Below are positions 22,661 through 55,289 of a stretch of 64,000 nucleotides of DNA, in pieces. The translations under genes were made by a program, and so were the position numbers. Every line of letters starts with the position of its first letter. Position 1 is the first letter of the stretch. Origin of the DNA: Branchiostoma floridae (Eukaryota > Chordata > Leptocardii > Amphioxiformes > Branchiostomatidae); contig NC_049983.1 of NCBI RefSeq assembly GCF_000003815.2, forward strand, positions 3,604,706 to 3,668,705. Direction: 5' to 3'. The notes under the pieces were generated by a model. The model was not told the origin of the DNA and made no database searches. It worked only from the letters and a program-made list of their open reading frames with translations.

Positions 22661-23180
22661 AAGTTTATATATCAATTAGGTCTTAACAATAGGTCTTCTA
22701 TTAAACAGAAACTACAAAAAACTGACATGTGGCATATTAAATTAAATCCAAAGTGCATCGATAGAATCTGATGCTAGTGTAATATATTCCTTAACATGAT
22801 ACAACAATGTTAATGAAAATGTTAAACGCAAAACCCACCACCCCTTCTATTCTAATCATTTCTAAATAGACTGTAGCCTTCTACATGCAACTGTCAGTCC
22901 GATATGGAATCATCAGGCTAGGATACAACCATTATATGTACAGTGTTCTGATTCAGCTTGGTCTAAGTCTTTTACATATTAACGCAACTGAGGCGGGTTA
23001 AGCTTAGGTCCATTAGGTACGTTTAGGTTATGCATGGTCCGTTCATTAAATAGCGATGTGTAGATGTACAGCTAAATTCAAATGAATATATTACTTCATC
23101 TTCTCTATAATCGTACACACATGAATTTCATCACACACAGAGCTATTAGATAATCTGATTAACGGACATGTTGAATTAAC

Positions 23181-24045
23181 TTAACCCTATCCAGACTGGG
23201 GGGGGGGGGGGGCTAAAAGTGCCCGCGGCAACTTTGACCCCCTATAGCTCCCAAACGGCTTGTGCTAGAACAACCAAACTTGGTGAGTTTTCCTAAAATA
23301 TTGTTGGCAACAATTTGAGAAAAAATGGGTAAGTTTATGATTTTTCGTGTTGCCATGGCAACGGGTTAGTGAAAGGCAAATTTTACAAAAATCACTAATT
23401 TTGGTTTAAACAATGGGATTTTAAGATTTTCTTGCTAAACTAAACATCATTTCATATATCATTAATATCTAAGAGTTCTTAGTTGAACATTTATAATCAA
23501 ATATTCATAAATTATGCCAATGAGATGACGTAATTGGTCAAAATCCAAGATGGCCGACAATATCATGATGAAAAGTATAACAAGCTTATTTTCACTCAAA
23601 TTTCATCACTGCTTGGTATTTTTTTTAACAGAAATCATTCATTTGAACGTTTTTAATCCATTTCCAAGGGGTTTTAGCGTTATATGTTAAAAAAAATGTA
23701 TCTTGAAAATTTAAGGTTGATAATCCATGATGGCGGATAGCTAAACTACAGATGACGTCATTCTATGACGTCATTTTGACGTCGTTGCGTCGACTTTTGA
23801 CAACAGAAGTCTTATAACACTTAAATATTAATAAGAAACCTTTATTGGTAACTTTTTGAATGAGATGTTTAGGTATTATGGGAATTCCCCGTTTTAGCCA
23901 AAAATATCAATTATTGACGTCATAATTACGTCATATTACGTCATAATGATATAAAAATTGCAGGAATTATAAAACTCGATGAGCACAACCTTCCCTTAAA
24001 ATTTGGTGATCGTACGGTAAGTCGTTTTGAAAATACGAAGGGGGG
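23181..24045 (+). mobile_element. piggyBac-like MITE, copy 1 (3' end lost)
   Basis: Starts TTAACCCTATCCAGACTGGG, followed by a long G run. The body is shared with the copies at 51321, 53885 and 60929, including TTGCCATGGCAACGGG and several TGACGTCA motifs. The right end stops in GAAGGGGGG without the inverted terminus. The matching place in the right arm (about 42655-42720) has no element, so this is an insertion that post-dates the inverted duplication and later lost its 3' end. Confidence 0.85.
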
Positions 24046-26538
24046 GATTCTACTACCAACTCACTCAGCCTATTAAGTACACTCGCTCAGAAGGTAATGT
24101 TTTCGGTAGCATTTGTGTATATGTATGTGTGCGTGTATGTATGTATGGATGAACAGCAAAACGATATATTGAGTTCTGCACATGATATGATTGTGATTTT
24201 ACTGGTAGATATTCAATTTACAAAAGGGAGTAAGTATTGTAGGTTTTGAACCCTATCGGTTTACTTCTGGTACTGCAGGAGCAGGTTTAAATTAGTTTTT
24301 GACTTTCAAAGAGAAAAACTCAATAAGGTGCTGACGGATCTTCGTGACATTTGTTATGTAGATGGCTTCTATCATGTTTGATATGGTTGGTACATGATGG
24401 CAAATGATAAGTGGTAATCATGCAAATCAGAATCTAACTTACATAGTTAATAAGGAAATTGTATAAACCAGGTTAGGACCAACTGAACGTCAAATCTATG
24501 TGACAGAGAAATAGAAGTACATTTGTAGATAAGAAATATGCAAATGGAGACCAAATTTCCATAATGTATGAGTTATTCAATGTGGTAAATGACGAGAAAT
24601 CCAATGGATAAGGATGTGAAGGTTACCGGCATTGAGTATGCATTATGAATGAGGGCCTCATTTGCATATAAGAAATTTAAATGCTTAAAAGCATTTTTCT
24701 TAATTTTAAATAAGATTTTCAACTTCTGCTGTTTGGTACAGGAGACTGTCAACTTACTAATATCATTTATACAAAGGAGGGGCTTATTTGCACAAACATA
24801 TCTCAATGAAAATGGCACAATACATCATTCGTAAAGGTTAGAATCATTTGGTGAAGGTAGGAGGTCATGGAACTCTAGTTGACTTTTTAGTTAACTTTGA
24901 TCAATTTACATATGATAACTAGATTTAAAAAAATCAGAATGCATAAATTCTTTTGCCTCTGATTCATTAGCACACATCAAGATACTCTTTAAAATATCCA
25001 ACACGCAATTCAGTCTATAGTTGCGATATGAGAGGATAGTATATACACATTTTTTCAGCTGAAAGAAGCATTTTCAAACTTTCGTAATTACCAAATGATA
25101 AAAGAAGAAAAATAGTTTCCATATTTTTAGAATGCTGTTCCATCCCTGGTGAATCACTGCTTCAAGGAAAATCGAGCTATTTTTTTCACTGTATTCGTTT
25201 GAGCTTTAGCGTATCTTGAATACATCTGGATGATATTTAGTACGTGAGTGGGTTGATTTTTGGCTATGTGGCTTGCCTTGAGACTGCAGCAGAACACCCT
25301 TTTTAATATCTTTTTTCCAGGACTTTCTATTATCTTGATTTTTTTCTAAACAAACTTTGATGTAAGGAAACGTCATCTAGGCTAAATGTATAGATTATGT
25401 CAGTGTGGTGGTAATTTGCATTCGATGGAATACAAATATAATATAGACCTTTTCTAACGGGAATTTGTTTTATGAAATTCTTGATTTTGATGATGATGAA
25501 GATATGAATTTGGCACAGAGAGTCATCATTCAAAATCATTACACCAAAATGAGACAAGATGAAACAAGAAGTTTACAAAACCCAAATCTTTCATGGGGTT
25601 TAAGATGTTTCTAATAATAAATGCGTGTTTGGCAGACTTACCTGATGAAAAGAATTAGAATAAAGTACCAAGCATACACAAGTAAAAATCTGTTGCATTC
25701 TTTTTACTTTTGACATTGTAAAGGTTTTCTAGTCAATGAATCAGCCTTTGGAAGTACTGAGAGACCGTGGAGTGAATTATTTTTGGTTGGTGTTGTTAGG
25801 TTAATTTTTGAAGACTTGGGGATAGTGGTAAGATACTTTCTTTTGATTTATGAAAAAGTAACAGAGTTTGTTTCATCATTTTTTGGATATTTGTGTAGAA
25901 TTTGTGAAAAGACGTACTCCAAAAGCAGGTACTCAAGCAGGTGTGTATGATTTTTGAAACGGCCAAACGTTTCAGATAGAATTATCTATCTTTAAGTCGT
26001 TACATATTTGTAGTTGTCCAAGATCGGACTTACATGACCACTTGCTGCACATGTAACCGTTAGTCTAGACATCATAATTGAACATAGTGACAATTGAATA
26101 TAGTGACAATAAAAACAGGACACTGCCGTCTGCTTATTAAACATGGGTAGGTAACAGCAGTTAGTAGGCTTTTGTGGACGAATGGCTACTACTTTTGGTT
26201 AGTATTGACACTATAGTTTGGTAAATCACAATTTACGTGAAGTGTTTTATTTGTAGCGTAGAATTTGATCATTTTTCACAGGCACCCACACTGTTGTGGA
26301 ATCAAAGCTTTTAGTGCAATAAAATATATCTGCATTTGTAAAGCATGTATTTCTGTTCTATTAAAATGGTTTATGTTAAAGAGAAACATAATTGGTTTCA
26401 GCACTTTTTTAGTACAAAAGAATAGGTTAAATATTGAAGAAAGCAAAAATTTTTCTTTTCCGTAAATCTGCAATTTCATTGTAATGTTGGCGGTTAGAGG
26501 TTTTAAGTTATACATATCGGGGGGGGGGGGGGTATTTG
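24046..26538. other. 3' flank of the left LRR gene
   Basis: Noncoding and AT-rich; mirrored by about 40450-42650. It contains part of a dispersed repeat (about 24240-24340) related to 42300-42460 and 50430-50540. A TTTATT at about 26247 (AATAAA on the minus strand) could serve as polyadenylation signal for the left LRR gene. A run of 14 G lies at about 26520-26533 directly downstream of the stop codon. Confidence 0.4.
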
Positions 26539-29500
26539 CTATGATGTGTTACGGATTCCCTCCCCTGATATCTCCCATGGCCAGTAGGTGTTAGGCAGTG
26601 TGACTAGAGGAATGGTAGCACGCCTTGGTGTGTTACGGACTTCCTCCCCTGATATCTCCCATGGCCAGTAGGTGTTAGGCAGTGTGACTGGGGGAAGGGA
26701 TGCACGCCTTGGTGTGTTACGGACTTCCTCCCCTGATATCTCCCATGGCCAGTAGGTGTTAGGCAGTGTGACTGGGGGAAGGGATGCACGCCTTGGTGTG
26801 TTACGGACTTCCTCACCTGATATCTCCCATGGCCAGTAGGTGTTAGGCAGTGTGACTGGGGGAAGGGATGCACGCCTTGGTGTGTTACGGACTTCCTCCC
26901 CTGATATCTCCCATGGCCAGTAGGTGTTAGGCAGTGTGACTAGGGGAAGGGGTGTACGCCTTGGTGTGTTACGGACTTCCTCCCCTAATATCTCCTCTGA
27001 CCAGTAGGTGTTAGGCAGTGTGACTGGGGGAAGGGATGCACGCCTTGGTGTGTTACGGACTTCCTCCCCTGATATCTCCCATGGCCAGTAGGTGTTAGGC
27101 AGTGTGACTAGGGGAAGGGGTGTACGCCTTGGTGTGTTACAGACTTCCTCCCCTGATATTTCCCATGGCGAGTAGGTGTTAGGCAGTGTGACTGGGGGAA
27201 GGGATGTACGCCTTGGTGTGTTACGGACTTCCTCCCCTGATATCTCCCATGGCGAGTAGGTGTTAGGCAGTGTGACTGGGGGAAGGGATGCACGCCTTGG
27301 TGTGTTACGGACTTCCTCCCCTAATATCTCCTCTGGACAGTAAGTGTTAGGCAGTGTGACTGGGGGAATGGAGGCACGCCTTGGTGTGTTACGGACTTCC
27401 TCCCCTGATATCTCCCATGGCCAGTAGGTGTTAGGCAGTGTGACTAGGGGAAGGGGTGTACGCCTTGGTGTGTTACGGACTTCCTCCCCTGATATCTCCC
27501 ATGGCCAGTAGGTGTTAGGCAGTGTGACCAGAGGAAGCGAGGGACGTCGTGGTGTGCTATGGGTTTCCTCCCGTAGGATACCCATAGTACAATAGGCATC
27601 AGGCGATGCGAGGATAGCGATATGAGCTTCGGTGACGTGTCGACCCATTGACAGAACTGCATCTGTGACGTTGACGTAGGTCCTTAAACCTTGGTCAGAA
27701 GGCTGGGAAACCAAAGCAGTCCTCAACTGTCTACGGGCCCTTATACCCTGGACTTCGGAGGCGTTTCTGTAAAAGTTGTTAATCTGGGCCTTGGTCTCTT
27801 CAGACGATCCATATGTGGCGACGGGTCTTATATACGGGTGTCTGCTTGAAGTTGTAGTGTTATTCTGGGCTGTCCGTCTATTCTGCAGCCGCCCCCTATT
27901 GCCAAGGACATGAAGCGAAAACTCGGCAAAATCATCATAGAAAGGCATGGGTCCGCTCTCCTCATCATCTGGGATCTCACTGTAGGTATGTCGTGAGGAA
28001 GGCAGAGGGCGCTGTGGAGAGGCTTCTTGATCTAGGAACTCCCTGTGTGTGTGCGGGAGAACAGGCAGGGGGCGCTGTGCGGCTGCTATGTGATCGGGGA
28101 TCTCACTGTAGGCGGGCTCGAAGGACAGCACAGCCGGCAATGACCTACAGGATGTCGCATTGTCTGCGGAGCCCCAGCGTGTGAATGTTACAGTAGGAAG
28201 AGAAGATGACCGTACTACTCCGGAAATTGCGTGTTCTGGAATCTCCCAGTATGTATTTGGGAGACCAGGCAAAGGCCTGTTTGCAGCCGCTATGTCATCT
28301 GGGATCTCACAGTAAGTAGGCTGGACGGAATGCAGGACAGCGGGCAATGACCTACAGGACGCTACGTCATCCGACATCACCTCTCTCGAACATGTAGGGA
28401 GGGAAGCTGACCTGATCAAACCGGGAAATGCAACCGCAGCTGGATCTGTTAAAATGTGTACATTGTTGCTGGCCCCCACATCATCAGCGTTAAAATATGC
28501 TGAGCGCAGCTTTAATACCAAAACCACAAAGGACAACAGTACCAAAAAGGACACTACTGAGACAACTACTGGTATGAGACCATGATCTGTTGCTGACGGC
28601 ACCTCTGGTCTAGGTGTGATGCTTAATTGCGGTGTTGAGGTATCTGCCCAGTGTGTCAGGCTGCTGGAGTTTTCAGTGTCTCCTCTGTAAGTGTTTTCTG
28701 TGGTGTGTGTATGACACTGAGCCTGGGAAGCGGTGAAGAACAACTCCGCGTGTTTATCTTGGGCGAGGAGAATGCAGGTGATGTTTTTTGGATTGTCATG
28801 GGTAGTGTTGTTTTGGCTACATCCTGGCTCTGTGGTTGTGTGTGTGTTTGTGCTACGTGCTTGGAAAAACGACAATGCAACACCTTCAAAGGTTGTATTC
28901 CTTGTGGTCATGGAAACCAGTCGGAAGACTGAGTTTCCCACGAGGCCTACCGTAATGCCCCCATCGTATTCCCAAACCTGCCTGCACTGCTCAAGCGTGT
29001 TTGGAACAGGCTTGTCTCCCAAAGAGTCATCAGTAGCTAAGACAACTACAGGGGCCTGGATGGGAATCACATTCAGTGAACGACCCGGAGGCAAAGTGCC
29101 ACAAGACATGCCAGGGTTGACACGTATCAGCTTGACGTTGCGAGGCACACTGTCCGATGAGTCAAACATCCACCCAAACGAGAGTTTATTAGCATTATGC
29201 CTGACACAGAAGATGAATTTTGACACCTCAACAACCAATGTTACTGCCCTGCTGATTTGATTTCCTAACCGGTGCAGGCTCCACATCATTGCATGTGGCT
29301 TTGCATCATAGACAGATGCCAACACTTCACTGCTGATATGGAGCCTTAACAGCGAAATCTGTCCCCGAAAAACCGATTCATCCAAACATGACAGAGCATT
29401 GCCACTCAGGTCTAACCTCCCCAGTTGTATGTGTCGAAATGACTCAGGAGAAATGCTATTAATTGCATTTGAGCTTAGGTTCATGATCAAGCTACCTTTC

Positions 29501-30060
29501 AGTCCAAAGAGCCAAGCAGAGTCAACAACCTGTAACAGATTGTTATCCAGATCCAACGAGTGTAGGCAGGTCAGGTGTACGAAACTCCCTGGCTCTATAT
29601 CCTTGATTTTGTTTAGACTCTCCAACCCAGTGAACCAGGTCTGTTTTACATTTGTAAACCTATTCGAATCTAGGGACAGTTTTTCGAGACCTGAAACCCC
29701 AGAGAATGTATCGTTCTCCATGTCTGTAATTCTTGCATCTATTAAGGCCAAAGTGTCGATAACAGTATGGTCGAGCATTGTCAAGGTCTTTGCCGATAGG
29801 ATGTTGAATGGGTGTCCTCTAATGGCAACGTTTTTAACCCCAGCAAAGAAAGAAAAAGGACTTCTAGTGAAAACAGCCTCATTCAGGACCTTACATATGC
29901 GACATGCTGACAGACCAGGCATCCAAGTGTTCAAACCTACCTTACGTCTGCCAGACATACATTCTTGCCATCCGGCTTTCCTACACTGATTGACATGCGG
30001 GCTACTTGTAACTGCACAGGCTAAGAGAAGCAACAACGACATGACAGCTTTCTCCTTCAT
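26539..30060 (-). CDS. LRR single-pass transmembrane receptor with repeat-rich signalling tail (left copy, 1173 aa)
   Basis: Single-exon frame. Signal peptide at residues 1-20 (MKEKAVMSLLLLLACAVTSS); Cys-rich N-terminal cap; about six leucine-rich repeats at residues 90-240 (for example LHSLDLDNNLLQVV and LGRLDLSGNALSCL); a further ectodomain with N-glycosylation sequons; a transmembrane helix at about 491-515 (GLIPVVVSVVSFLVLLSFVV), then basic residues. The cytoplasmic tail is about 655 residues. It has PTYCEIPDD, NTYWEIPE, PAYSEIPDH and HTYSEIPDD (YxEI motifs at about 580-695), RPLPGLP and RPLPVLP (class I SH3 ligands), then twelve 28-residue units from about 843 to the end. Compared with the right copy it lacks 7 residues inside one LRR (SLNKIKDI against SLLALVLSNNNIKDI). 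The start is supported by ATG at the position homologous to GTG in the other copy. The ligand is unknown; the extracellular-LRR receptor class is clear, the pathway is inferred. Confidence 0.85.
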   Translation of the reverse strand: MKEKAVMSLLLLLACAVTSSPHVNQCRKAGWQECMSGRRKVGLNTWMPGLSACRICKVLNEAVFTRSPFSFFAGVKNVAIRGHPFNILSAKTLTMLDHTVIDTLALIDARITDMENDTFSGVSGLEKLSLDSNRFTNVKQTWFTGLESLNKIKDIEPGSFVHLTCLHSLDLDNNLLQVVDSAWLFGLKGSLIMNLSSNAINSISPESFRHIQLGRLDLSGNALSCLDESVFRGQISLLRLHISSEVLASVYDAKPHAMMWSLHRLGNQISRAVTLVVEVSKFIFCVRHNANKLSFGWMFDSSDSVPRNVKLIRVNPGMSCGTLPPGRSLNVIPIQAPVVVLATDDSLGDKPVPNTLEQCRQVWEYDGGITVGLVGNSVFRLVSMTTRNTTFEGVALSFFQARSTNTHTTTEPGCSQNNTTHDNPKNITCILLAQDKHAELFFTASQAQCHTHTTENTYRGDTENSSSLTHWADTSTPQLSITPRPEVPSATDHGLIPVVVSVVSFLVLLSFVVLVLKLRSAYFNADDVGASNNVHILTDPAAVAFPGLIRSASLPTCSREVMSDDVASCRSLPAVLHSVQPTYCEIPDDIAAANRPLPGLPNTYWEIPEHAISGVVRSSSLPTVTFTRWGSADNATSCRSLPAVLSFEPAYSEIPDHIAAAQRPLPVLPHTHREFLDQEASPQRPLPSSRHTYSEIPDDEESGPMPFYDDFAEFSLHVLGNRGRLQNRRTAQNNTTTSSRHPYIRPVATYGSSEETKAQINNFYRNASEVQGIRARRQLRTALVSQPSDQGLRTYVNVTDAVLSMGRHVTEAHIAILASPDAYCTMGILREETHSTPRRPSLPLVTLPNTYWPWEISGEEVRNTPRRTPLPLVTLPNTYWPWEISGEEVRNTPRRASIPPVTLPNTYCPEEILGEEVRNTPRRASLPPVTLPNTYSPWEISGEEVRNTPRRTSLPPVTLPNTYSPWEISGEEVCNTPRRTPLPLVTLPNTYWPWEISGEEVRNTPRRASLPPVTLPNTYWSEEILGEEVRNTPRRTPLPLVTLPNTYWPWEISGEEVRNTPRRASLPPVTLPNTYWPWEISGEEVRNTPRRASLPPVTLPNTYWPWEISGEEVRNTPRRASLPPVTLPNTYWPWEISGEEVRNTPRRATIPLVTLPNTYWPWEISGEGIRNTS
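26545..27545 (-). repeat. 84-bp coding tandem array, left receptor (12 units of 28 aa)
   Basis: Each unit reads approximately SGEEVRNTPRRASLP, then PVTLPNTYWPWEI. Variants at the serine position are RRTPLP (three units), RRTSLP (two), RRASIP and RRATIP. Tyrosine-region variants are NTYCPEEIL, NTYSPWEIS and NTYWSEEIL. The unit length is a multiple of 3, so gain or loss of units keeps the frame. Confidence 0.95.
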
Positions 30061-30288
30061 GCCACCACTTGTCTAGAAGTATCTTATCCTTTCATACAAA
30101 TAACGACTAGTCTGGTTGCCGAACTGTTTCCAGGACTTACTCAAGCCAGCTACTTGGCTCCAGGGCCAACATGCCACCCGAGGAAATTCTAAATCAGAGC
30201 CCGCTGAGTTTACCCGATATGGACATTATTGAGATCGAGGGTCTGACATTCAGGCTAAGTAATGATCCGTCACTTACCTGCAGTTGAC

Positions 30289-30342
30289 GTCTGTGTACGT
30301 GTTCCGCACGTCTTTAAACATCAGAAACGAGCTGTGAAGAAA
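30289..30342 (-). promoter_or_regulatory. Candidate 5' exon of left LRR gene
   Basis: On the minus strand an acceptor-like CTTCACAG is followed by about 53 bases ending CAACTGCAG and a donor GTAAGTG. The same block with the same borders is present in the right arm (36474-36526). The next acceptor candidate is CTGGAAACAG/TTCGGC just upstream of the receptor ATG. In the left copy the frame through the junction is stopped before the ATG, so this would be a 5' UTR exon. Confidence 0.45.
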
Positions 30343-30499
30343 GAAAGAGATCTCAATCTGATTTAGCTCATCGAAAATGTATTTTACACTGGTCATAACA
30401 GAGACGATTTAGACTCTAGATACAGTAGTTGTCGGCTCATTGTACAGGGGAAATCCCTCCTGGATGTCTTGGCGATCAAAATCAAATTTAGGCTCTGGC

Positions 30500-30660
30500 T
30501 AAACGCTGTAACGTTTTCCAGCAGAGTGCCAAGCGGGTGAGCGATACAGTCGGGATTTGAACTTACAGCTTCGTGCTCCAGACTCCAGACGAAGGGCCGT
30601 TAACCACAGGACTCTGCACGCTGCTGTCGGTCGACTGAGAGCTCCTTTTCTTAGTTGTAA
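30500..30660 (-). repeat. tRNA-derived SINE-like element, left arm
   Basis: On the minus strand a Pol III-like box B (AAGTTCAAATCCC) lies about 45 bases downstream of a box A-like GTGGTTAACGGCC. It continues into a tail containing TTGGCACTCTGCTGGAAAACG. Mirrored at 36180-36330. It does not fold as an intact tRNA. Confidence 0.55.
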
Positions 30661-32791
30661 CAATAATTCTTCGTATATGCACGTAACAAGCTCTACACAA
30701 CACAACCGACTGTGGCGGCGTCTATGCGTACACTGCGATCATTTACCAGACTAATAATTTGGCAGTGTCATGTCCGTACCCTTAGAGCACTGGATCATGG
30801 AAATGAAGTTTCTAGTACCCGGGGGTTGTTATTGTATAAGAGCTGCGCATAAACGTGCTTCCTTATCTTCAGACTAATCTCATGAAGTACCAATGACTAC
30901 TCAAGTAAAAATAAGGTATTTGCACTGTATAGTTCACAAGAAGCGACTGTGTGGTTTGTTTGTTTCAGAGTCGGAACATATCATTATCACGAGACAGCAT
31001 GTGTAAATTTCTGAAATGTAGCTTTTTCGTTCACAGTCCGAAGCGGGTTGTAATTGTCATTAACTGCAAAATGTTTATGTTCTTCATTTCTTAGTAATTA
31101 TTTTTGTCTAAGAGATTTGATGCTTCAGAAATATTTCAACGTAATTTCAACCTTTAAATATTTGTCCAGTTGCGTAAACCTTTGCAAATATTCATGATTG
31201 AGCATATGACATTTTCAATTTTTTCTTCCATTATTTGTCACCTTTGGGTTGTTATGGTATAAGATCTGCGGCTTAACGTGCCTCTTTATCTTCAGACTAC
31301 TCTCATGAAGTAATATTGATAATTATTATTATTATTAATTTATTATAATTAATAATGATAGAGTCCATTCCAAGACACCATGCGGATGTTTGTGGCCATT
31401 GTTTAGAATTGATTTTAAAGTTTTGTAATTATATGTCTAGGACATTTGATACTTCAGAAATATTTGTAACACTGTTTCAACTTTATAAATATTTCCCTGG
31501 TCCTGTAAAACTTTGGAAATACTCATCGTGTGGAATTGGATACTTCTAATGGTTTCTAAATAATGATAACAGTATTCTACCATTATTTACCATTTTCTAC
31601 CATTTTTTGTAAATGGTTCAGTGGGCTGGGAAGATAGCAATTCACACATTCTTGCAAATTATGGTTGGGTGCCATGCAACAATGGCCCACCACAAAGGAT
31701 TCACCAGTGCCCAGCAGTGTAATCTAAAAATATACAGATACAACAATAGGGCTTACTTTTATGGGGGCAATAAACTAATTTAACCATTTGGCCAGGTTTA
31801 CCATTTTTCGTAAATATATGTAAATGTGAAATAATCACAGAGAGGTTTCACAATGATTCTAAATAAAGATATTTTGTACAGTTACTTTCAAAATGTTTCT
31901 AAAATATTCAAAGGAATTCAAATATATGAGTACTTTCTCAGTCAATCTTTTTGGAAATAATATAATTATTGTGGCTCAGATATTCTTTTGTTCAAAATAA
32001 TTCAGACTAATTATAAATATCGGTTAAAAACCCTCATGGTGTGTTGGAATGGACTCTAGTAATTCATTAGTAATTTATTATCATTTATATATTTACTAAT
32101 CAAGTAAATATAAGGTCTTTGCACTGTATACTTTACAAAAAGCAAAATGGCTGATTTCTTTGTTTGTCTTAGAGCCAGGACATGTCATTTTCATGTCTAT
32201 ATTTCTGAAATGTTGCGTAAATTCTTGTAATTGAATGAGATACAGGTTTTTCGTTCAAAGGCAACGAGAGGGTTGTCATTGTCATTACCTGCAAATGTTT
32301 TCTATTCCTTACTTTTCTTAGTTGTAATTATTTCGTCTAAGAGATTTGTTGCTTTGGAAATATTTTAACATTATTTCAACCTTCTGAATATTTCTCTAGT
32401 TGTGTAAACCTTTACAAATAGTTATGATGTAGCATATCATATTATTAATAGTTTCTTTCATAACCAAATTTACTATTAAGAAATGAGGCAAATAATTGTA
32501 CATATTTCCAAAATTGAAAGAATCGCATCGATGATTGAAAATCATTCTAATAATATTTTCGTAAAATTTAAAAGAAAATCAAATTTTCAATTTCAATCAA
32601 GCTAAAAAAATGTGACAATACATATCAAATTTTAGGTTATTACAACTTATTCTAAAGCCCTCTCAGTTATTTAATGAGTCTCGTAGCCATCGAATCCTTG
32701 GGAAAGGCACTTAACTCGAGTTTCCTCACTTCACTCAGGTAAACATGAGCACCTAGCTTCGGCTAGGGTTGTCCCTCGGATAGGACGTTAA
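30661..32791. other. Noncoding inner part of left arm
   Basis: No gene seen. AT-rich, with internally similar stretches: TATAAGATCTGCGGCTTAACG at 31258 resembles TATAAGAGCTGCGCATAAACG at 30835, so the arm itself contains an older direct duplication. Mirrored by about 34744-36180. Confidence 0.45.
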
Positions 32792-34743
32792 AAGAACTGT
32801 TAAGCGTTACTTTCACCACTTGTAATTTGGCATCGCTACTGTCACTGTTCTTGTACTCTGTGGAAGGTGGTTTATTCTTGTCGGTAAATTCAGTAGCAAA
32901 CGTTGCCTTTGGAGTCCGATCGCAACATCTATATCAGGCACGTATAAGTCCAGGAATCGCCTTTTTTGCCTTGCAGTTGTTGTTTTCTTTACTTTCATAA
33001 GGGTTCATTGCTGTCATTTGTAGCGTATCTCGCGTAACGATATGTTTCACAATAATGACTGTATAAACGTTTACGTTACCAATAAATTAAGGTGCACTCT
33101 TACCACAGTTGTGTCAAACTTACGTCACTGCGGGGCTCGTTAACTGCGTCACCGTTTTGTTGTTTTCTCCATTTTTTTATAATTTAGATATTGCGTAATA
33201 CGCAAATGTATGACTTAGAAGACGAAAAAATACACAAAAAGTACAAAAATTATTTTTCTTGGACATGTTTTGAGTATCTTACGAACCCCGTAGTGACACA
33301 AGCATGACGCAAGTGCAGTGAGAGTGCCCCTTTACAAGTATATTATGCTTTCTACGTTATCCAGTAAACCCGGTAAACAAAAATTTCCCAATCTAAAGTT
33401 GCCTTTAGGTATTTACTCAATTAGCTAGATAATAAGCTAAAAACTGTAACTCTTAAACTTTACTTTCAAATCTAACTTTTTATCTAACTGTAAATCAATT
33501 CCAATTACAAGTCATACTTTGTGACCTAATTATGGTTTATGTCGGTTGTGATGTTTTCTGTGGTGTATGACTCGGTGTTTATATCGCATACAGGACACAT
33601 CCCATCGACCTATACCAAAAACTTACTTAAAAGCTAACATACTAATAACTGCCAAATTCAAAACACAATCCTGTACGCATCAACAACAAAATCAGCGTCT
33701 TAATCGAACGACACCAATGAAAACAACCACACAGCTTCACAATGGATACCTGAGACGCATACCATTGTACAAAGTGGGGCAGTGACAGCTGTGGACAGCT
33801 GACAACACGACATGCACATGACCCCATATCTGCTTGGAGATAAGTAATTAGCAAACCCCATGGCCTATAGGCTAGCTGTTCCACAACGCCAGGGAAATAG
33901 GGGTGATTTTTCAAATTATTACGTCGATAATGAAAACAGTTACCGTGAAAAAAACCCAAGGATCAAACACGTTCTAACCATTAACTGCATATGACTTTCA
34001 ACCGCGCAAAATGTTAACAGTATGCTATGTCAAACCAACCTCAATACTAGAAACGCAAAGCCGGAACGAGATGGCATATTCCGACGAGGACAACATCTGC
34101 TTGACGATATCCAACTACCACAAGGCTTAATGCGCGATCATAAGGAAGACCTGGACCACTATACCGGACGGCGTAGGGGTGAAAACTGAAATTATTTCAT
34201 CCATAATAAAAACAGCTACCGCGAAAAAAGTGCATCATTTCGCAATGGAGTACAGACGACATGCCAAACCACATACAATTGCGGCAAACGAAACATAGAG
34301 ATAGAGATGCGAACACTCAACGCTAAACCGTTCACAAGACTCTGTCGCTGGAGGTTACCCTCCAGTCGCAGATTAATAAACTATATGGTAAGAATTTTTT
34401 TTACTTAATGGTCACCACGTAAAAAGGCCTAAAGGTCATTTCAAAGTGTGACCTGAAGGCCACTCAAATATTATGGGTTATATTGTAACTGTAACAGCAT
34501 CTCTTCTCCCTAGGTCAGAAACATCATGATTGAGACCAGCTCAATTTCTCATTATGAGTGAGGACTTACTGACCCAACAGGCGAAACAGGGGTTACGAAG
34601 GCTGCTCGGGAAATTCCCTATCCCATTTAAGCCGGAATGGTTTGATCTTCTCACACCGGAAATGTCCCCTACTCTTTTCGCTAAGTGTGGCTGGTTCTTT
34701 TACGTGTCCCGGGTGTGGCTCTCCCAGAACACAGGACCTCAAT
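32792..34743. other. Spacer between the two arms (palindrome loop)
   Basis: About 1.95 kb not repeated between arms. No convincing gene. It contains an internal duplication (ATTACGTCGATAATGAAAACAG at about 33918 against ATTTCATCCATAATAAAAACAG at about 34194) and a copy of the dispersed repeat also at 6550. Its right edge, about 34690-34743, holds the rest of the SINE whose 3' part forms the inner edge of both arms (GTGGCTCTCCCAGAACACAGG). Confidence 0.6.
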
Positions 34744-36179
34744 TTAACGTCCTATCCGAGGGACTACCCTAGCCGAAGCTAGGTGCTCATTTTCACCTGA
34801 GTGAAGTGAGGAAACTCGAGTTAAGTGCCTTTCCCAAGGATTCGATGGCTACGAGACTCATTAAATAACTGAGAGGGCTTTAGAATAAGTTGTAATAACC
34901 TAAAATTTGATATGTAAAGTCATATGTTTTAGCTTGATTAAAAACGAAAATTTGATTTTCTTTTAAATTTTACGAAAATATTATTAGAATGATTTTCAAT
35001 CATCGATGCGATTCTTTCAATTTTGGAAATATGTACAATTATTTGCCTCATTTCTTAATAGCAAATTTGGTTATGAAAGAAACTATTAATAATATGATAT
35101 GCTACATCATAAATATTTGTAAAGGTTTACACAACTAGAGAGATATTCAGAAGGTTGAAATAATGTTAAAATATTTCCAAAGCAACAAATCTCTTAGACG
35201 AAATAATTACAACTAAGAAAAGTAAGGAATAGGAAACATTTGCAGGTAATGACAATGACAACCCTCTCGTTGAAACCTGTATCTCATTCAATTACAAGAA
35301 TTTACGCAACATTTCAGAAATATAGACATGAAAATGACATATCCTGGCTCTAAAACAAACAAAGAAATCAGCCATTTTGCTTTTTGTAAAGTATACAGTG
35401 CAAAGACCTTATATTTACTTGATTAGTAGATATATAAATGATAATAAATTACTAATGAATTATTATCATTATTAATTATAATAAATCAATAATAATGCTA
35501 ATTATCAATAACACTTCATGAGAGTACTCTGAAGATAAAGAAGCACGTTAAGCCGCAGATCTTATACCATAACAACCCAAAGGTGAAAAATAATGGAAGA
35601 AAAAATTGAAAATGTCATATGCTCAATCATGAATATTTGCAAAGGTTTACGCAACTGGACAAATATTTAAAGGTTAAAAAATTACGTTGAAATATTTCTG
35701 AAGCATCAAATCTCTTAGACAAAAATAATTACTAAGAAATGAACATAAAACATTTTGCAGTTAATGACAATTACAACCCGCTTCGGACTGTGAACGAAAA
35801 AGCTACATTTCAGAAATTTACACATGCTGTCTCGTGATAATGATATGTTCCGACTCTGAAACAAACAAACCACACAGTCGCTTCTTGTGAACTATACAGT
35901 GCAAATACCTTATTTTTACTTGAGTAGTCATTGGTACTTCTTGAGATTAGTCTGAAGATAAGGAAGCACGTTTAGGCGCAGCTCTTATACAATAACAACC
36001 CCCGGGTACTAGAAACTTCATTTCCATGATCCAGTGCTCTAAGGGTACGGACATGACACTGCCAAATTATTAGTCTGGTAAATGATCGCAGTGTACGCAT
36101 AGACGCCGCCACAGTCGGTTGTGTTGTGTAGAGCTTGTTACGTGCATATACGAAGAATTATTGTTACAACTAAGAAAAG

Positions 36180-36330
36180 GAGCTCTCAGCCGACCGACAG
36201 CAGCGTACGGAGTCCTGTGGTTAACGGCCCTTCGTCCGGAGTAAGAAGCTGTAAGTTCGAATCCCGGCTGTATCGCTCACGCGCTTGGCACTCTGCTGGA
36301 AAACGTTACAGCGTTTAGCCAGAGCCTAAA
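36180..36330 (+). repeat. tRNA-derived SINE-like element, right arm
   Basis: Box A-like GTGGTTAACGGCC at about 36217 and box B AAGTTCGAATCCC at about 36253, then TTGGCACTCTGCTGGAAAACG. Mirror of 30500-30660, upstream of the right LRR gene. Confidence 0.55.
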
Positions 36331-36473
36331 TTTGATTTTGGTCGCCAAGACATCCAGGAGGGATTTCCCCTGCACAATAAGCCTGCAACTACTGTATCTA
36401 GAGTCTAAATCTTCTCTGTTAATACATTTTCGATGAGCTAAATCAGATTGAGATCTCTTTCTTTCTTCACAGC

Positions 36474-36526
36474 TCGTTTCTGATGTTTAAAGACGTGCGG
36501 AACACGTACACAGACGTCAACTGCAG
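36474..36526 (+). promoter_or_regulatory. Candidate 5' exon of right LRR gene
   Basis: Acceptor-like CTTCACAG, then an exon-like block ending GTCAACTGCAG, then donor GTAAGTG. It is conserved with its borders in the left arm. If spliced to the acceptor at about 36682 (CCTGGAAATAG), the frame of this copy stays open into the receptor, unlike the left copy. Confidence 0.45.
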
Positions 36527-36774
36527 GTAAGTGACGAATCATTACTTAGCCTGAATGCCAGACCCTCGATCTCAATAATATCTATCGGGTAACTCAGCGG
36601 GGTCTGATTCAGAATTTCCTCGGGTAGCATGTTGGCCCTGGAGCCAAGTAGTTTGCTTGTGTAAGTCCTGGAAATAGTTCGGCAACCAGACTTGTCGTTA
36701 TTCGAATGAAAGGATTAAATAGAGTACGACTGAACAGAATGTATGCCAGAGGTGGTGTGAGGGAGAATGCTGCC

Positions 36775-39700
36775 ATGTTGATGTTGCTTCTCTTAGCTAC
36801 GGCCTGTGCAGCTACAAGTAGCCCGCATTTTCATCCGTGTAGCAAGGCCGAATGGCAAGAATGTATGTCTGGCAAAAGTAAGGCAGGTTTCAACACTCGG
36901 ACGCCTAGTCTATCCACATGCCTCATATGTGAGGTCCCGAATGAGGCTGTTACCACAGGAAGTCCATTTTCTTTCTTTGCTAGGGTCCAACATATTGCCA
37001 TTAGGGGATACCCATTCCACATCCTGTCGGCAAAGAGCTTGACGATGCTACACCATTCTGTGGTCAACACTTTGGTTTTGATAGATACAAGTATTACTGA
37101 CATAGAGAACGATACATTCTCTGGGGTTTCCGATCTCTACAAACTGTTCCTAGATTCGAACAGGTTAACACGTGTGAAGCAGACCTGGTTCACTGGGTTG
37201 GAGAGTCTTTTGGCTCTGGTCTTGTCCAACAACAACATCAAAGATATAGAGCCAGGAAGCTTCGAACACCTGTCCAGCCTACATATGTTGGATCTAGATA
37301 ACAATCTGTTACAGGTTGTGGACTCTGCCTGGCTTTTTGGACTGGAAGGCAGCTTGATCATGAACCTAAGTTCAAATGCAATAAATAGCATTTCTACTGA
37401 GTCATTTCAACACCTACAATTTTGGACCTTAGACCTGAGTGGCAATGCTCTGTCATGTTTGGATGAATCAGTGTTTCTGGGACAGACATCGTTGTCAAGG
37501 CTCCATATCAGTAGTGGTATGTTGGCATCTGTCCATGATGCAGAGCCACATGGAATGATGTGGAGCCTACACCGGTTACGCCATCTAGGCAGGAGGGCAG
37601 TAACATTGGTTGTTGAGGTGCCACAATTCATCTTCTGTGTCAGACACAATGCTAATGAATTCTCATTTGGATGGGTGTTTGACTCATCGGACAGTGTGCC
37701 TCGCAACGTCGATTTGGGAAGTGTCAACCCTGGCAAGTCTTGTGGCGCTTTGCCTCTGGGTCATTCTCTTAGCACGATCTTCATCCAGACTCCTGCAGTT
37801 GTCTTAGTTGCTGACGGCTCTCTGGGAGACAAACCGGTCCCCAATACGCTTGAGCAATGCAGACGAGTTTGGGAATACGATGGGGGCATATCACTGAGCC
37901 TTGAGGGACACTCAATCTTCCGATTAGTTTCTATGGCCAAAGGGAATACAAGCTTTGAAGGTGTTGCGATGTCGTTTTTCCAGGCACATGTCCCAAACAC
38001 ACGCACAACCACAGAGTCTGGATGCAACCCAAACAACAACACCCATGGCAATGCAAAAAGCATCACCTGCATTCTCCTCACCAAAGATGAACATGCCGAC
38101 TTATTCTTTAGCGTTCACCAGAGTCAACGTCAGACACACACTACAGCAAAGACTTACAAAAGAGATACTGAAAACTCCAGCAGCCTGACAAACTACACTG
38201 AATATATGAAACATGACTACACATCTACAGAAAGGGGAAACACCTTTACACCGCAATTACATACCACACCTAGAGCAGAAGTACCACCACCCCCAGACCA
38301 TGGTCTCATATCAGTTGTTGTCTCGGCAGTGTCCATTCTGGTCCTGTTGTCCTTTGTATTGTTGGCATTAAAGCTGCGCTCAGCACATTTTAACGCCGAT
38401 GATGTAAGAGCCAGCGACAATGAAGACATTTTCACAATTCCAGCTCCGGTTGCCTTTCCTGGTTTGATCAGGTCAGCTTCTGTCCCTACATGTTCGAGAG
38501 AGGTGATGTCGGATGACGTAGCCTCCTGTAGGTCATTGCCCGCTGTCCTGCATTCCGTCCAGCCTACTTACTGCGAGATCTCAGATGACGTAGCGATTGC
38601 TCAGAGGCCTTTGCCTGGTCTCCCTAACACATACTGGGAGATTCCAGATGACGCAGATTCTGGCGTAGTACGGTCAGCTTCTCTACCTGCAGTAACGTGC
38701 ACACGTGGGAGCGCCGAAGACGATGCATCATCCTGTAGGTCATTGCCGGCAGTGCTGTCCTTCGAGCCCGCCTACAGTGAGATCCTAGATCACATAGCAG
38801 CCGCACAGCGCCCCTTGCCTGTTCTCCCGCGCACATACAGGGAGTTCCTAGATCAAGAAGTCACTTCAAAGCGCCCCCTGCCTTCCTCACGACATAACTA
38901 CAGTCAGATTCCAGATGATGAGGAGAGCGGACCCATACTTTTCTATGATGATGTTGCCGAGTTTTCGTGTCGTGTCCTTGGCAATAGGGGGCGGCTGCAG
39001 AATCGACGGGCAGCCCGTAATAACACTACAACTACAAGGAGACACACGGTTATAAGACCCGTCGCCACATATGGAACGTCTGAAGGGACCAAGGCCCAGA
39101 TTAACAACGTTTATAGAAACGCCTCCGAAGTCAAGGGTATAAGGGCCCGTAGACAGTTGAGGACAGCTTTGGTTTCCCAGCCTTCTGACCAAGGTTTGAG
39201 GACCTACGTCAACGTCACAGATGCAGTTCTGTCAAAGGGTCGACACGTCACTGATGCTGACATCGCCTTCCTCGCATCGCCTGATGCCTATTGTACTATG
39301 GGGATCCTACGCGAGGAAACCCATAGCACACCGCGACGTCCCTCTCTCCCCCTAGTCACACTTCCTAACACCTACTGGCCATGGGAGATATTAGGGGAGA
39401 ACACTTCTGGCACACCAAGGTGTGCCTCCCTTCCCCTAGCCACACCGCCTAACACCTACTGGCCATGGGAGATTCCAATAGAGGAAACCTGCAACACATC
39501 AAGGCGTGCCTCCCTTCCCCTAGTCACACTGCCTAACACCTACTGGCCATGGGAGATACCATGTAAGGAAACCCATAACACACCAAGGCGTGCCTCCCTT
39601 CCCCTAGTCACACTGCCTAACACCTACTGGCCATGGGAGATTCCAATAGAGGAAACCTGCAACACATCAAGGCGTGCCTCCCTTCCCCTAGTCACACTGC

Positions 39701-40383
39701 CTAACACCTACTGGCCATGGGAGATTCCAATAGAGGAAACCTACAACACATCAAGGCGTGCCTCCCTTCCCCTAGTCACACTGCCTAACACCTACTGGCC
39801 ATGGGAGATACCATGTAAGGAAACCCATAACACACCAAGGCGTGCCTCCCTTCCCCTAGTCACACCGCCTAACACCTACTGGCCGTGGGCGATATCAGGG
39901 GAGGGGGACCCTTACACTCCACGGCGTGCCTCCCTTCCCCTAGCCACACTGCCTAACACCTACTGGCCATGGGAGATACCATGTAAGGGAACCCATAACA
40001 CATCAAGGCGTGGCTTCCTTCCCCTAGCCACACTGCCTAACACCTACTGGCCATGGGAGATACCATGTAAGGGAACCCATAACACATCAAGGCGTGGCTC
40101 CCTTCCCCTAGTCACACTGCCTAACACCTACTGGCCATGGGAGATACCATGTAAGGGAGCCCATAACACACCAAGGCGTGCCTCCCTTCCCCTAGTCACA
40201 CTGCCTAACACCTACTGGCCATGGGAGATACCATGTAAGGGAGCCCATAACACACCAAGGCGTGCCTCGCTTCTCCTAGTCACACCGCCTAACACCTACT
40301 GGCCGTGGGCGATATCAGGGGAGGGGGACCCTTACACTCCACGGCGTGCATCCCTTCCCCTAGTCACACTGCCTAACACCTAA
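36775..40383 (+). CDS. LRR single-pass transmembrane receptor with repeat-rich signalling tail (right copy, about 1202 aa)
   Basis: Paralogue of the gene at 26539-30060, divergent from it. I start at the ATG at 36775, which gives a clean signal peptide (MLMLLLLATACAATSS). The frame also opens at an ATG at 36706, but the position homologous to the left gene's ATG is GTG here. LRRs at residues 88-245 include LALVLSNNNIKDI, which is shortened in the left copy. Transmembrane helix at about 510-535 (SVVVSAVSILVLLSFVLLAL region). The tail has PTYCEIS, NTYWEIPDD, PAYSEIL, RTYREFL and HNYSQIPDD (about 597-708), RPLPGLP and RPLPVLP, then 28-residue units to the end. The stop is TAA where all other units have TAC (Tyr). 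The same frame continues for a further unit-like stretch after it, so the end is a recent truncation. Likely plasma-membrane signalling receptor; ligand unknown. Confidence 0.85.
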   Translation: MLMLLLLATACAATSSPHFHPCSKAEWQECMSGKSKAGFNTRTPSLSTCLICEVPNEAVTTGSPFSFFARVQHIAIRGYPFHILSAKSLTMLHHSVVNTLVLIDTSITDIENDTFSGVSDLYKLFLDSNRLTRVKQTWFTGLESLLALVLSNNNIKDIEPGSFEHLSSLHMLDLDNNLLQVVDSAWLFGLEGSLIMNLSSNAINSISTESFQHLQFWTLDLSGNALSCLDESVFLGQTSLSRLHISSGMLASVHDAEPHGMMWSLHRLRHLGRRAVTLVVEVPQFIFCVRHNANEFSFGWVFDSSDSVPRNVDLGSVNPGKSCGALPLGHSLSTIFIQTPAVVLVADGSLGDKPVPNTLEQCRRVWEYDGGISLSLEGHSIFRLVSMAKGNTSFEGVAMSFFQAHVPNTRTTTESGCNPNNNTHGNAKSITCILLTKDEHADLFFSVHQSQRQTHTTAKTYKRDTENSSSLTNYTEYMKHDYTSTERGNTFTPQLHTTPRAEVPPPPDHGLISVVVSAVSILVLLSFVLLALKLRSAHFNADDVRASDNEDIFTIPAPVAFPGLIRSASVPTCSREVMSDDVASCRSLPAVLHSVQPTYCEISDDVAIAQRPLPGLPNTYWEIPDDADSGVVRSASLPAVTCTRGSAEDDASSCRSLPAVLSFEPAYSEILDHIAAAQRPLPVLPRTYREFLDQEVTSKRPLPSSRHNYSQIPDDEESGPILFYDDVAEFSCRVLGNRGRLQNRRAARNNTTTTRRHTVIRPVATYGTSEGTKAQINNVYRNASEVKGIRARRQLRTALVSQPSDQGLRTYVNVTDAVLSKGRHVTDADIAFLASPDAYCTMGILREETHSTPRRPSLPLVTLPNTYWPWEILGENTSGTPRCASLPLATPPNTYWPWEIPIEETCNTSRRASLPLVTLPNTYWPWEIPCKETHNTPRRASLPLVTLPNTYWPWEIPIEETCNTSRRASLPLVTLPNTYWPWEIPIEETYNTSRRASLPLVTLPNTYWPWEIPCKETHNTPRRASLPLVTPPNTYWPWAISGEGDPYTPRRASLPLATLPNTYWPWEIPCKGTHNTSRRGFLPLATLPNTYWPWEIPCKGTHNTSRRGSLPLVTLPNTYWPWEIPCKGAHNTPRRASLPLVTLPNTYWPWEIPCKGAHNTPRRASLLLVTPPNTYWPWAISGEGDPYTPRRASLPLVTLPNT

Positions 40384-40440
40384 TGGCCAGGGGAGATGCC
40401 AGGAGAGGGAACCCCTAACACACCATATCCAATAACTCTC
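39325..40440 (+). repeat. 84-bp coding tandem array, right receptor (13 units)
   Basis: Units read RRASLPLVTLPNTYWPWEI followed by a variable linker: PIEETCNTS, PCKETHNTP, PCKGTHNTS, PCKGAHNTP or SGEGDPYTP. The linkers differ as a group from the SGEEVRNTP linker of the left gene. Serine-motif variants are RCASLP, RRGFLP and RRASLL. The last unit is cut by the TAA at 40381-40383 and continues untranslated. Confidence 0.95.
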
Positions 40441-40514
40441 AGTCAATATGTATGACTTAAAACCTCTAACCGCCAACATTACAATTTCAGGATTCAGAAA
40501 TGACAATTTTCAAA

Positions 40515-40520
40515 AATAAA
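40515..40520 (+). terminator. Polyadenylation signal of right LRR gene
   Basis: AATAAA 132 bases after the TAA, the first in the 3' flank. Confidence 0.5.
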
Positions 40521-43239
40521 TACCTTCGTTGGGCAGTGTTGTTGATGGGAAAATATTTGCCTCTCCAATTTTCTTTTTCAAGATGCATTGTATTGGACGT
40601 TTAAATTTACAGGACAGTCAAAAATATTCAACGTATCTGAGGAAACCCGGTCTTTTGTTACTGATGGTTCAGATTGCAAATTTACATGAATGTTCATTTA
40701 AAAAATGCTAAAATCACACTTTTCGTGCAGTGCCAATAGAAAGCAAACGTAGTGGCCATTTTGTCAACAGGAGGCTGAGAGATGATGTTGCTTTCTCTTG
40801 TTTAATACACAGACGGTATTGTCCTTTTTTGAATAAAACTCTATTTAATTACGATTCTTGATTAACAGTTACATGTGCAGCAAGTGTTCATGCACAATTA
40901 CAAGCCAGATCTTGAACATGCTAATTACAAATACGCCACGAAAGATGGAGGATGCGATCTAAAACGTTTGCCCGTCTCCAAAATTACTGCTTTTGGCGTA
41001 CGTCTTCTTGCAAATTTCTATACAAATATGTAAAAAAAAGGAGTCAAAGCGTTTCTGACTTGAAGAGTTGTGGTGTCTCTAGAAACCAACCAGACGAAAT
41101 AAAATACTCTACGCCATGGTCTCTCAATCCTTCCAAAGGCCGAGCGATTGACCAGAAAGCCTTTGCAATGCCATCTACGTCAAAAGTAACATTATTGCAC
41201 AAAATTTTCTTTTACTTTTGTATGCCGGGTACTTTATCATATTCTTTATGCATTTATTACTAGATCTCAAACCTCGTGAAAGATTGGGGTTTTTAAAACT
41301 TCTTGTTTCATCTTGTCTTATTTTGCATAATTGGTATTGAATGATGACCTTCTGTGCGGAATTCATATCTTCATTATCATCATCAAAATCATGAATTATG
41401 AAAAAAATCCGTTAAAAATTACCTATATTTGCATTTAATCGTGTGCAAAATATAATTATAATATATAAATATAATAAAGGTATACAGCTCGATTTTTCCA
41501 TGTGGTGATAATTCACCGGGGCTGAAAAAGCATTCTAATAAGAAAAATTGTAACTATTTTTTCTTCTTTTATCATTTGGTAATTAAGAAAGTTTGAGTAT
41601 GATTCATTCAGCTGTAAAATTCTGTATATAGATACGCTCCCATGTTGCAACAAAAGGCTGAATGGCATGTTAGTTGCTTTATAGTATTTTTTGTGTTAAT
41701 GAATCTGATGCAATTGAATTTATGCAGTTACCTTTTTTAATCTAGTTGCCATATGTAAATTGATTGCCATATGTAAATTGAAACTAACTGAAATGACAAG
41801 GGATCCACGCCTTCATACCATCACCACCTATACAAATTATGCACTGTGTGTTTTTGTCATTAATTACATGTTTGTGCAAATGTGGCCATCTTTTTGTTAA
41901 CAATATTAGTGAATTGAGTCTCCTCCACCAAACACTAGAACTTGGCAATCTTATCTTAATTTGATAGCACTTTTTATCATTTATGCAAAAGAGTTTATAA
42001 TTTTCATAATTCATATTCAATGCCATGATGTTTGTCATTTGCCACGATTGAACAATACCTCATTCAGTATGCAAATTTGTCATCATTAGCATATTTCCTA
42101 TCCACCAATGGACTTCTCTTTCTCTGTCACAAAGGCCTGAGGTTCAATTGGTCTTATTCTGGTTTATACAATTTCCTTAACTATATAAGTTAGATTCTGA
42201 TTGGAATGATTACCACTTATTTTTTACTACCATTAACCACCATATTAAACGCAAATCATCTACATAACAAATAGTACGAAGATCTGTCGGCTCAATATTG
42301 AGTTTTTTTCTTTCAAAATCTGAAACTAAATTGGCTCCTGCGGTACCAAAAAGCCGCCAGAGGGCCAAACCTACACCACTTACTCTCTTATGAAAAAAGT
42401 ATTTACAATTGAAATCACAACCATATCTTGTACAGAACTGTGGATATCCACCGCAGTACCGCAATAAGCTGCTATTTGGCCCAACATCTAAACATTTCAG
42501 GGTCTTAAGACCTACTCACGTACCAAATACAATCGATATAGGCTGTCCATCTACAAATATGCATACATATATACATGCATATACATATACAAATGTACAT
42601 GCACACAAACGCAACCGAAAACATTACCTTCTGAACAAGTGTATTTAGGCTGAGTGAGTTGGTTGTGGAATCATTTTGATCAATAATATGATATGTAAAT
42701 CAAGTTAATCCAACATATGTCCGTTAATCAGATTAACGTGTGTGTGGTAAAATTCATGTGTGTATGATTATAGGGCAAATGAAGTGATGTGTACATGAAT
42801 CCAGCAGTACATTTGCACATTACATGCAATAATGAAGGAACCACAATCTAAACTTAGTGATACCTAACGAACCTTTAACTAGCCCGCCTCAATTACGTAA
42901 CAATGTATATTACTTAGCCCAATAAATGAACCAGAACACTGTACATATAATGGATGTATCAGAAATGCATGCCGGTGATTCCATATCGGACAGACATTGC
43001 ATGTAGAAAGCTAGAGTCTACTTATAAAGGATAGGAATTGAAGGGGAGGTGGTGTAGTATTGGTGGTATAAAATTTCTAGTAACAGTGTTATTTCACGTT
43101 AGTGAAGATCTTACCTTGCCCTCTATAGAGGGCAATTTGGATTGAAGTTCATATGCCACATGTCAGATGTCGGTAGTTTTTTTTTTTTATAGAACACCTA
43201 ATTTTAAAAACGAATGCGAATATAACTTTGATTATATTG
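40521..43239. other. 3' flank of right LRR gene
   Basis: Noncoding mirror of about 22660-26500. It contains a dispersed repeat (about 42300-42460, with GGGCCAAACCTACACCACTT) related to 50430-50540, and a (CATA)n-rich stretch at about 42560-42600. No gene seen. Confidence 0.45.

Positions 43240-55222: not shown

Positions 55223-55289
<67 letters not shown>

Follow-up and report, generated by a model that had tools for sequence, protein, structure and literature searches.

Single-exon leucine-rich repeat receptors of Branchiostoma floridae with selectively kept docking motifs in long putative cytosolic tails

Introduction

In an amphioxus leucine-rich repeat (LRR) receptor, BbLcLRR, the sites DDYATV, HDYSEV and HDYDDP are targets of Lck; the receptor binds SHIP1 and inhibits T-cell receptor-induced NF-kB activation in Jurkat cells (PMC8211107). 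Another LRR receptor, GPIb-IX-V, docks 14-3-3 and is associated with Src-family kinases and PI3K (PMC4284388). The present work concerns two genes of the lancelet Branchiostoma floridae, designated A and B, which lie in inverted orientation in the analyzed stretch of 64,000 nucleotides (the window; assembly GCF_000003815.2, contig NC_049983.1, positions 3,604,706 to 3,668,705 of the forward strand) and encode putative LRR receptors with long motif-rich tails.

BbLcLRR shares with the family of A and B its origin from amphioxus, the type I LRR architecture and the tail tyrosines, one of which is of the YSEV type; it differs by its length of 699 amino acids (aa) and by SMART-predicted LRR caps and a WSC domain between the LRRs and the transmembrane helix. 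A tandem array is not described in the available text on BbLcLRR (PMC8211107), which was compared by description only (record MW390887). GPIb-IX-V likewise has LRR ectodomains and single transmembrane helices, and its phosphoserine 14-3-3 docking includes the PKA site Ser166, whereas its tails are short, belong to separate subunits and carry few 14-3-3 sites, with no array or YxEI cassette in the accessible description (PMC4284388). The Src-binding domain of p130Cas resembles the tails in combining an RPLP-type SH3 docking site (RPLPSPP) with serial tyrosine sites, whereas p130Cas is a docking protein rather than a receptor and its substrate repeats are YxxP (PMC2956669). FrLRR and the variable lymphocyte receptor (VLR)-like LRR proteins are also lancelet LRR recognition proteins with a proposed immune role (PMC10199209, PMC4731796); FrLRR differs by a predicted glycosylphosphatidylinositol-anchor site (PMC10199209), and the available parts of both papers mention no such tail. 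In the open-licence literature searched, the tail architecture of A and B was without description, and six tail peptides gave 0 papers. The first-pass annotation of this DNA could name no described receptor of such architecture; in the open-licence papers searched none with the exact architecture was found, whereas the kind of receptor is known from GPIb-IX-V and BbLcLRR.

We assign a probability of about 0.5 to the reading that A and B belong to a large family of type I LRR receptors, encoded by dispersed single-exon genes, and that the presumably disordered tails would be multivalent phospho-docking scaffolds for Src-family kinases and 14-3-3. The sequence data show the architecture, the family and the selection on the motif residues; expression of the genes, phosphorylation of the tails, binding of partners and an immune role are inferred.

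Architecture of genes A and B and the genome-wide family

The two open frames reported in the first-pass annotation were confirmed (Table 1). Each product has an LRR ectodomain, a single transmembrane helix and an inner tail of ~650 residues, which consists of a motif-rich proximal part and a C-terminal array; the LRR solenoid, single helix and cytosolic tail of a type I LRR receptor are thus found in both. The LRR_8 model matches frames A and B with E values of 2e-22 and 4.4e-27. By eye, candidate ATG codons lie near 30042 or 30060 in gene A and at 36775 in gene B, and the N termini of both products look like signal peptides. No match to the TIR domain of Toll-like receptors was found in the two frames at E <=1.

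Homology searches covered the 513,431,437-base assembly containing the window, and the match counts are lower bounds. The proximal tail of B gave 131 matches at E <=0.001; these correspond to 96 places, distributed over 19 contigs, after 35 extra rows of the same genes had been removed by hand and matches clustered at 1.5 kb. At 85 of the 96 places the tail lies in an open frame of at least 700 aa, and at 69 in one of at least 850 aa, frame lengths being inflated by N runs in at least three cases (C262, C5:4667806 and C12:12155225). With the ectodomain as query, 84 of 1600 candidates were scored, and 84 of 86 ectodomain matches had a tail place within 3.5 kb. Conversely, a scored ectodomain match lay within 3.5 kb of 81 of the 96 tail places; among the 15 without one, LRR-like sequence was recognized by eye in all six that were examined (L029, L031, L033-L036). 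The array query gave 190 matches, a figure that supports no claim on arrays outside the family. The LRR part, tail start and array were present in one frame at 8 of 20 examined loci (L015, L016, L018, L019, L022, L023, L026, L027). Eight more divergent members (L029-L036) each retain part of the motif set, and L030 has a literal YEEI. No relative was found among the viral contigs searched.

A copy on a small contig (L012, C262) shares 98% identity with part of gene A and is possibly allelic or unplaced.

Motifs of the proximal tail and selection on them

Four YxEI motifs (YCEI, YWEI, YSEI, YSEI) are present in the proximal tail of A and three, together with YSQI, in that of B. Of the strings named in the first-pass annotation, RPLPGLP and RPLPVLP occur in both tails, the exact NTYWEIPDD only in B and the exact PTYCEIPDD only in A. 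In composition-matched shuffles of the proximal tails (n=2000, A and B), the observed numbers of YxEI (4 in A, 3 in B; mean 0.02 in shuffles) and of RPLP (3 in each) were reached by 0/2000, and the two R[SR]xSxP strings per tail by 2/2000 (A) and 1/2000 (B). The excess was weaker for [RK]xxPxxP (28 and 27/2000) and for YxxI/L/V (83 and 12/2000). The membrane-near RSxSxP of A and B is an exact 14-3-3 mode-I string (RSXpSXP, PMC5666830).

Selection was assessed as omega (dN/dS; ranges in brackets) in an alignment of 19 of 22 family tails; L014, L020 and L024 were left out, since both anchors were not in one frame, and L029-L036 are not in it. The key columns are the key residues of RxxSxP, [RK]xxPxxP, YxEI and YVN, as they appear in the consensus of that alignment. 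With split copies counted, the 26 key columns had an omega of 0.115 (dS 0.38, dN 0.044), compared with 0.411 for the 247 other columns. The ratio of the two was 0.28 (0.10-0.62) with all 19 tails and 0.33 (0.09-0.83) with the 14 that remained after close copies were dropped. In a residue-matched control, motif identity was 0.957 vs 0.793 (permutation p 5e-5). As for the columns of the putative Src ligands, Arg and Pro of [RK]xxPxxP are kept in 16-19 of the 19 tails, and Tyr and Ile of YxEI in all 19 at three sites and in 18 at the fourth.

The comparison of A with B over codons 42-888 of B gave dS 0.246, dN 0.124 and omega 0.506 (0.39-0.64), with 0.456 (0.35-0.62) for the ectodomain. In the proximal tail, 2 of 54 key residues and 51 of 259 others were changed (Fisher p 0.0025); the numbers of synonymous changes, 6 and 26.5, were in proportion to the two classes. 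These comparisons show that selection has kept the docking-motif residues of the tails, as judged from codon changes. The Ser, Tyr and Pro positions singled out in the first-pass annotation, and the Arg positions as well, are thus retained by selection among paralogues of the same genome.

The first-pass annotation had also likened the tyrosine motifs to half-ITAM elements; neither this nor ITIM status is supported. An immunoreceptor tyrosine-based activation motif (ITAM) consists of two YxxL/I elements 6-8 (to 12) residues apart; the YxEI tyrosines of A and B are 21, 47 and 42 residues apart. The inhibitory counterpart (ITIM) is (I/V/L/S/T)xYxx(I/V/L) (PMC8211107), and the residue at -2 of the YxEI sites is P, N or H. 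A search for the ITIM pattern found none in the tail of A and one match outside YxEI (LFYDDV) in that of B. In the array units, Y..[ILV] is absent from A and B and from all 167 units of the family sample described below.

The family might nevertheless consist of inhibitory ITIM-type receptors like BbLcLRR, in which only the tyrosines matter, being phosphorylated by Lck and then read by SHIP or SHP, with the serine array as a spacer. HTYSEI of the family resembles HDYSEV of BbLcLRR, whose phosphorylation by Lck and binding of SHIP1 provide a precedent (PMC8211107), and the retention of Tyr and Ile at the YxEI sites agrees with this explanation. We regard it as unlikely, given the absence of canonical -2 residues at those sites, though the BbLcLRR authors accept H there (PMC8211107), and given that RSxSxP and RRxSxP are constrained themselves.

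The C-terminal array

The array has a period of 84 bp, with 12.2 copies in A and 13.2 in B, in agreement with the 28-residue units of the first-pass annotation: 12 are complete in each gene, and the 13th of B is cut by TAA. Nine of the 12 complete units in each gene, and also the cut unit of B, carry RRx[ST]xP. Among the 24 complete units, Tyr is present in 24 and Ser in 19, and units are homogenised within arrays.

The family sample consisted of 167 units from 23 frames, each preceded by another unit at exactly 28 residues and with pieces of split copies included; it excludes the leading elements, not true units, that are part of a wider 201-unit set. Ser occurs in 146 of the 167 units, Ser or Thr in 152, and R..[ST].P in 137. 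Omega was 0.205 (0.15-0.26) for the key residues of RRxSxP, 0.183 (0.14-0.26) for LPNTYWPW and 1.08 (0.91-1.29) for the linker; these two parts of the unit are therefore under constraint in the family sample, and the linker is neutral. In A and B, distinct codon variants within the core of 22 residues comprised 16 synonymous and 21 nonsynonymous ones, compared with 1 and 19 in the linker (Fisher p 0.0024).

Sites of the RSxSxP or RxxSxP type, as in 14-3-3 clients, are thus under selection in both the 19 tails and the 167 units. As for the 14-3-3 strings that the first-pass annotation placed in the array, their R, S and P are selectively kept; the exact mode-I sites are located near the membrane instead. 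The most conserved part of the array is not the Ser but the NTYWPW block, with W at +3 in 162 of 167 units and Y in 165, the latter count being favoured by anchoring on that residue.

Such conservation would also fit an array of aromatic and arginine stickers (RR, YWPW) that condense receptor clusters without 14-3-3, an idea further favoured by the low omega of LPNTYWPW and the lack of Y..[ILV]. Simple stickers would not need the Ser and the Pro at +2, which are kept as well, and we find this explanation rather improbable. A trafficking device, in which the RR motifs hold the receptor in the endoplasmic reticulum or Golgi until 14-3-3 on phospho-RRxSxP frees it, seems very unlikely: the RRxSxP repeats do lie near the C terminus and 14-3-3 masks RXR-type signals, yet the membrane-near RSxSxP would be left unexplained.

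The array also does not look independent of the proximal tail. With a profile of the unit, RPLPGLPNTYWEI in the proximal tail was matched by the NTYWPWEI half at 12.6 bits (best of 1000 shuffles, 5.4), which does not support a reading as three independent module types. On account of this match the array appears to derive from a module of the proximal tail that was amplified, the direction of change being presumed. Divergent members fit such a history, with a presumed order of events: L033 and L034 have RSxSxP and YxEI, L035 has RSxSxP only, and NTYWPW is in none of the three; L031 and L036 contain one or two unit-like stretches, and L029, L030 and L032 have arrays.

Discussion

Several observations weigh against tails that act as docking scaffolds. 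Linear motifs are short and degenerate, and between A and B the omega of the proximal tail, 0.615 (0.38-1.03), is not clearly below 1. Conservation of Glu at +2 of YxEI (0.84) is no better than in other Glu columns (0.82), so that it is Tyr and Ile that carry a pYEEI-like interpretation. Many tail columns outside the listed motifs are invariant too; the motifs are therefore not the whole conserved content of the tail. In the array, full RRx[ST]xP occurs in only 102 of 167 units, RGESLP is found in many units of one family subgroup, and neither 14-3-3 nor SH2 docking accounts for the conservation of NTYWPW. Whole-unit variants of A and B fit neutrality (17 synonymous vs 40 nonsynonymous; ratio 2.35 vs 2.45 expected, p 0.88), with a core deficit at p 0.087 and a linker excess at p 0.034, and the arrays of these two genes alone thus do not prove constraint. 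Finally, 9 of the 20 examined loci are split by a frameshift or stop (L009, L010, L013, L014, L017, L020, L021, L024, L028), and three contain N runs (L011, L012, L025). Together with the eight loci in one frame, the split loci indicate that intact genes coexist with broken copies, assembly errors being possible.

The split loci, the single-exon dispersed copies, the homogenised units and the overall neutral ratio in the arrays of A and B could all be expected if the tails were tandem repeats without selected function, in a gene family that is decaying and perhaps arose by retroposition. This seems highly improbable in view of the open frames of at least 700 aa at 85 of 96 places (at least three of them inflated by N runs) and of motif omegas of 0.115-0.205 vs 1.08 for the linker, with split copies counted.

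If the tails are docking scaffolds as proposed, clustering of the LRR ectodomains would bring in a Src-family kinase. Its SH3 domain would bind RPLPxLP, and its SH2 domain the phospho-YxEI sites made by the same kinase; Src-family kinases are activated by a peptide ligand of the Src SH3 domain, and SH2 domains bind pYEEI with high affinity (PMC4140816). Further readers may be adaptors of the Grb2 type, at YVN, and tyrosine or inositol phosphatases. In parallel, a basophilic kinase of PKA, Akt or PKC type would phosphorylate the membrane-near RSxSxP and the serial R-R-x-S-x-P of the array, and these sites, once phosphorylated, would bind 14-3-3 dimers, with unit number setting the 14-3-3 valency. 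More tentatively, and less likely than not, ~100 germline LRR receptors of a basal chordate could carry a two-code tail: a tyrosine/SH3 cassette for Src-family kinases, and an array of serine sites in which the number of units tunes the valency of 14-3-3, or of an NTYWPW-binding partner, with the NTYWPW docking element derived from amplification of the proximal module.

As regards 14-3-3 itself, 21 matches to the family were found in the same assembly, and at five places a single open stretch spans at least positions 3-222. These five are on C8, C12, C10 and C7; a sixth place has one stop, and C11 and C17 contain multi-piece loci. If the 14-3-3 set is indeed expanded, this would be of interest alongside the LRR receptor family.

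Ectodomain and predicted fold

LRR_8 was detected in 13 of 13 members, and no non-LRR Pfam family at E <0.066; a WSC domain was looked for in the same members, with no model match at E <=1. Fold prediction from 13 paralogues gave block-mean pLDDT (predicted local distance difference test) values of 70-93 in the LRR part, at approximately construct residues 71-220, and poor values elsewhere, with an overall mean of 55; with two ectodomain sequences the mean was 35. Structure matches were the Nogo receptor (best; 5o0n, E 2.1e-8), SALM2 and Slitrk1, with query TM-scores (template modelling scores) of about 0.3, as the alignment is confined to the LRR part. Hypervariability of the LRR concave face was considered and not borne out (mean entropy 1.17 vs 0.83, p 0.084). 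The variable part of the ectodomain is the LRRNT end, with an omega of 0.79.

Inverted duplication and surroundings in the window

Genes A and B lie in the two arms of an inverted duplication. Arm identity is about 96-99% just upstream of the genes (250-base windows), 79-93% in coding windows and 65-71% in the outer flanks (BLAST pieces), a gradient that would be expected from gene conversion near the duplication centre. The near-identical upstream region of each gene contains 54 bases that resemble an exon, flanked by a CACAG acceptor and a CAG/GTAAGT donor (30278-30331, minus strand; 36473-36526, plus strand); by eye, this is possibly a 5' non-coding exon. Further upstream, at ~30560 and ~36262, there is the impression of a tRNA-derived sequence resembling a short interspersed nuclear element, with a B-box-like string. 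About 696 bases (31361-32056) are exclusive to the left arm.

Elsewhere in the window, tyrosine-kinase-like exons were detected on the minus strand at 54798-56339 and 58713-63023 (PK_Tyr_Ser-Thr, E 2.7e-7 and 0.0047). Upstream of them lie EGF exons and a weakly matching laminin-G exon; together these are possibly one EGF-bearing receptor kinase gene. A Mucin2_WxxW domain exon lies at 8909-9271 (minus strand, E 1.6e-25), a reverse transcriptase fragment (RVT_1) at 12995-13474 (plus strand, E 7.7e-13) and a DUF4616 match at 1-477 (plus strand, E 3e-10). Tandem repeats include a 162-bp one at 7370-8203 (5.1 copies, 97%) and a 25-bp one at 5748-6003, which contains GCGATCGC. Two pairs of inverted repeat copies, 23181-24045 / 60966-61830 (92%) and 48952-49893 / 56640-57571 (93%), are perhaps mobile elements.

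Table 1. Positions of the genes, their parts and the duplication arms within the window
Feature	Positions	Strand	Gene	Details or basis
Open frame	26539..30072	-	A	1177 codons, stop to stop, single exon
LRR region (approximate)	29287..29835	-	A	without 7 residues that B has
Transmembrane helix	28513..28578	-	A	hydropathy; near residue 500-520
Proximal tail	27559..28506	-	A	RSASLP, YCEI, RPLPGLP, YWEI, RSSSLP, YSEI, RPLPVLP, YSEI, YVNV, YCTM
Array	26551..27558	-	A	12 complete 28-residue units
Open frame	36652..40383	+	B	1243 codons, single exon
LRR region (approximate)	36982..37551	+	B	LRR_8 match, fold prediction
Transmembrane helix	38302..38370	+	B	hydropathy; residues 552-573
Proximal tail	38377..39324	+	B	motif scan, family alignment
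RSASVP, 14-3-3 mode-I string	38470..38487	+	B	R, S, P in 19/19 family tails
YCEI	38569..38580	+	B	motif scan, alignment
RPLPGLP, class I SH3 string	38605..38625	+	B	R, P, P in 19/19
YWEI	38632..38643	+	B	motif scan, alignment
RSASLP, second 14-3-3 mode-I string	38671..38688	+	B	R in 18, S in 19, P in 17 of 19
YSEI	38773..38784	+	B	motif scan, alignment
RPLPVLP	38809..38829	+	B	R in 19, P in 19, P in 16 of 19
YSQI	38899..38910	+	B	family consensus is YSEI
YVNV, Grb2-type YxN string	39205..39216	+	B	Y in 16, N in 19 of 19
Array	39325..40332	+	B	12 complete 28-residue units
13th unit	40333..40383	+	B	TAA where other units have the Tyr codon TAC
Inverted duplication, left arm	21105..32792	-		self-comparison
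Inverted duplication, right arm	34743..44909	+		self-comparison

Significance

Tails of this type should not be labelled ITIM or ITAM by eye. The family makes it testable which kinases and adaptors read YxEI, RPLPxLP, RSxSxP and NTYWPW, and whether signalling is tuned by array length. A two-code tail, if true, would define a receptor class uniting tyrosine-kinase and basophilic-kinase signals in one tail. If expressed, these genes would give lancelets, in which the origin of vertebrate immunity is studied, a large family of receptors whose signalling tail is under strong selection.

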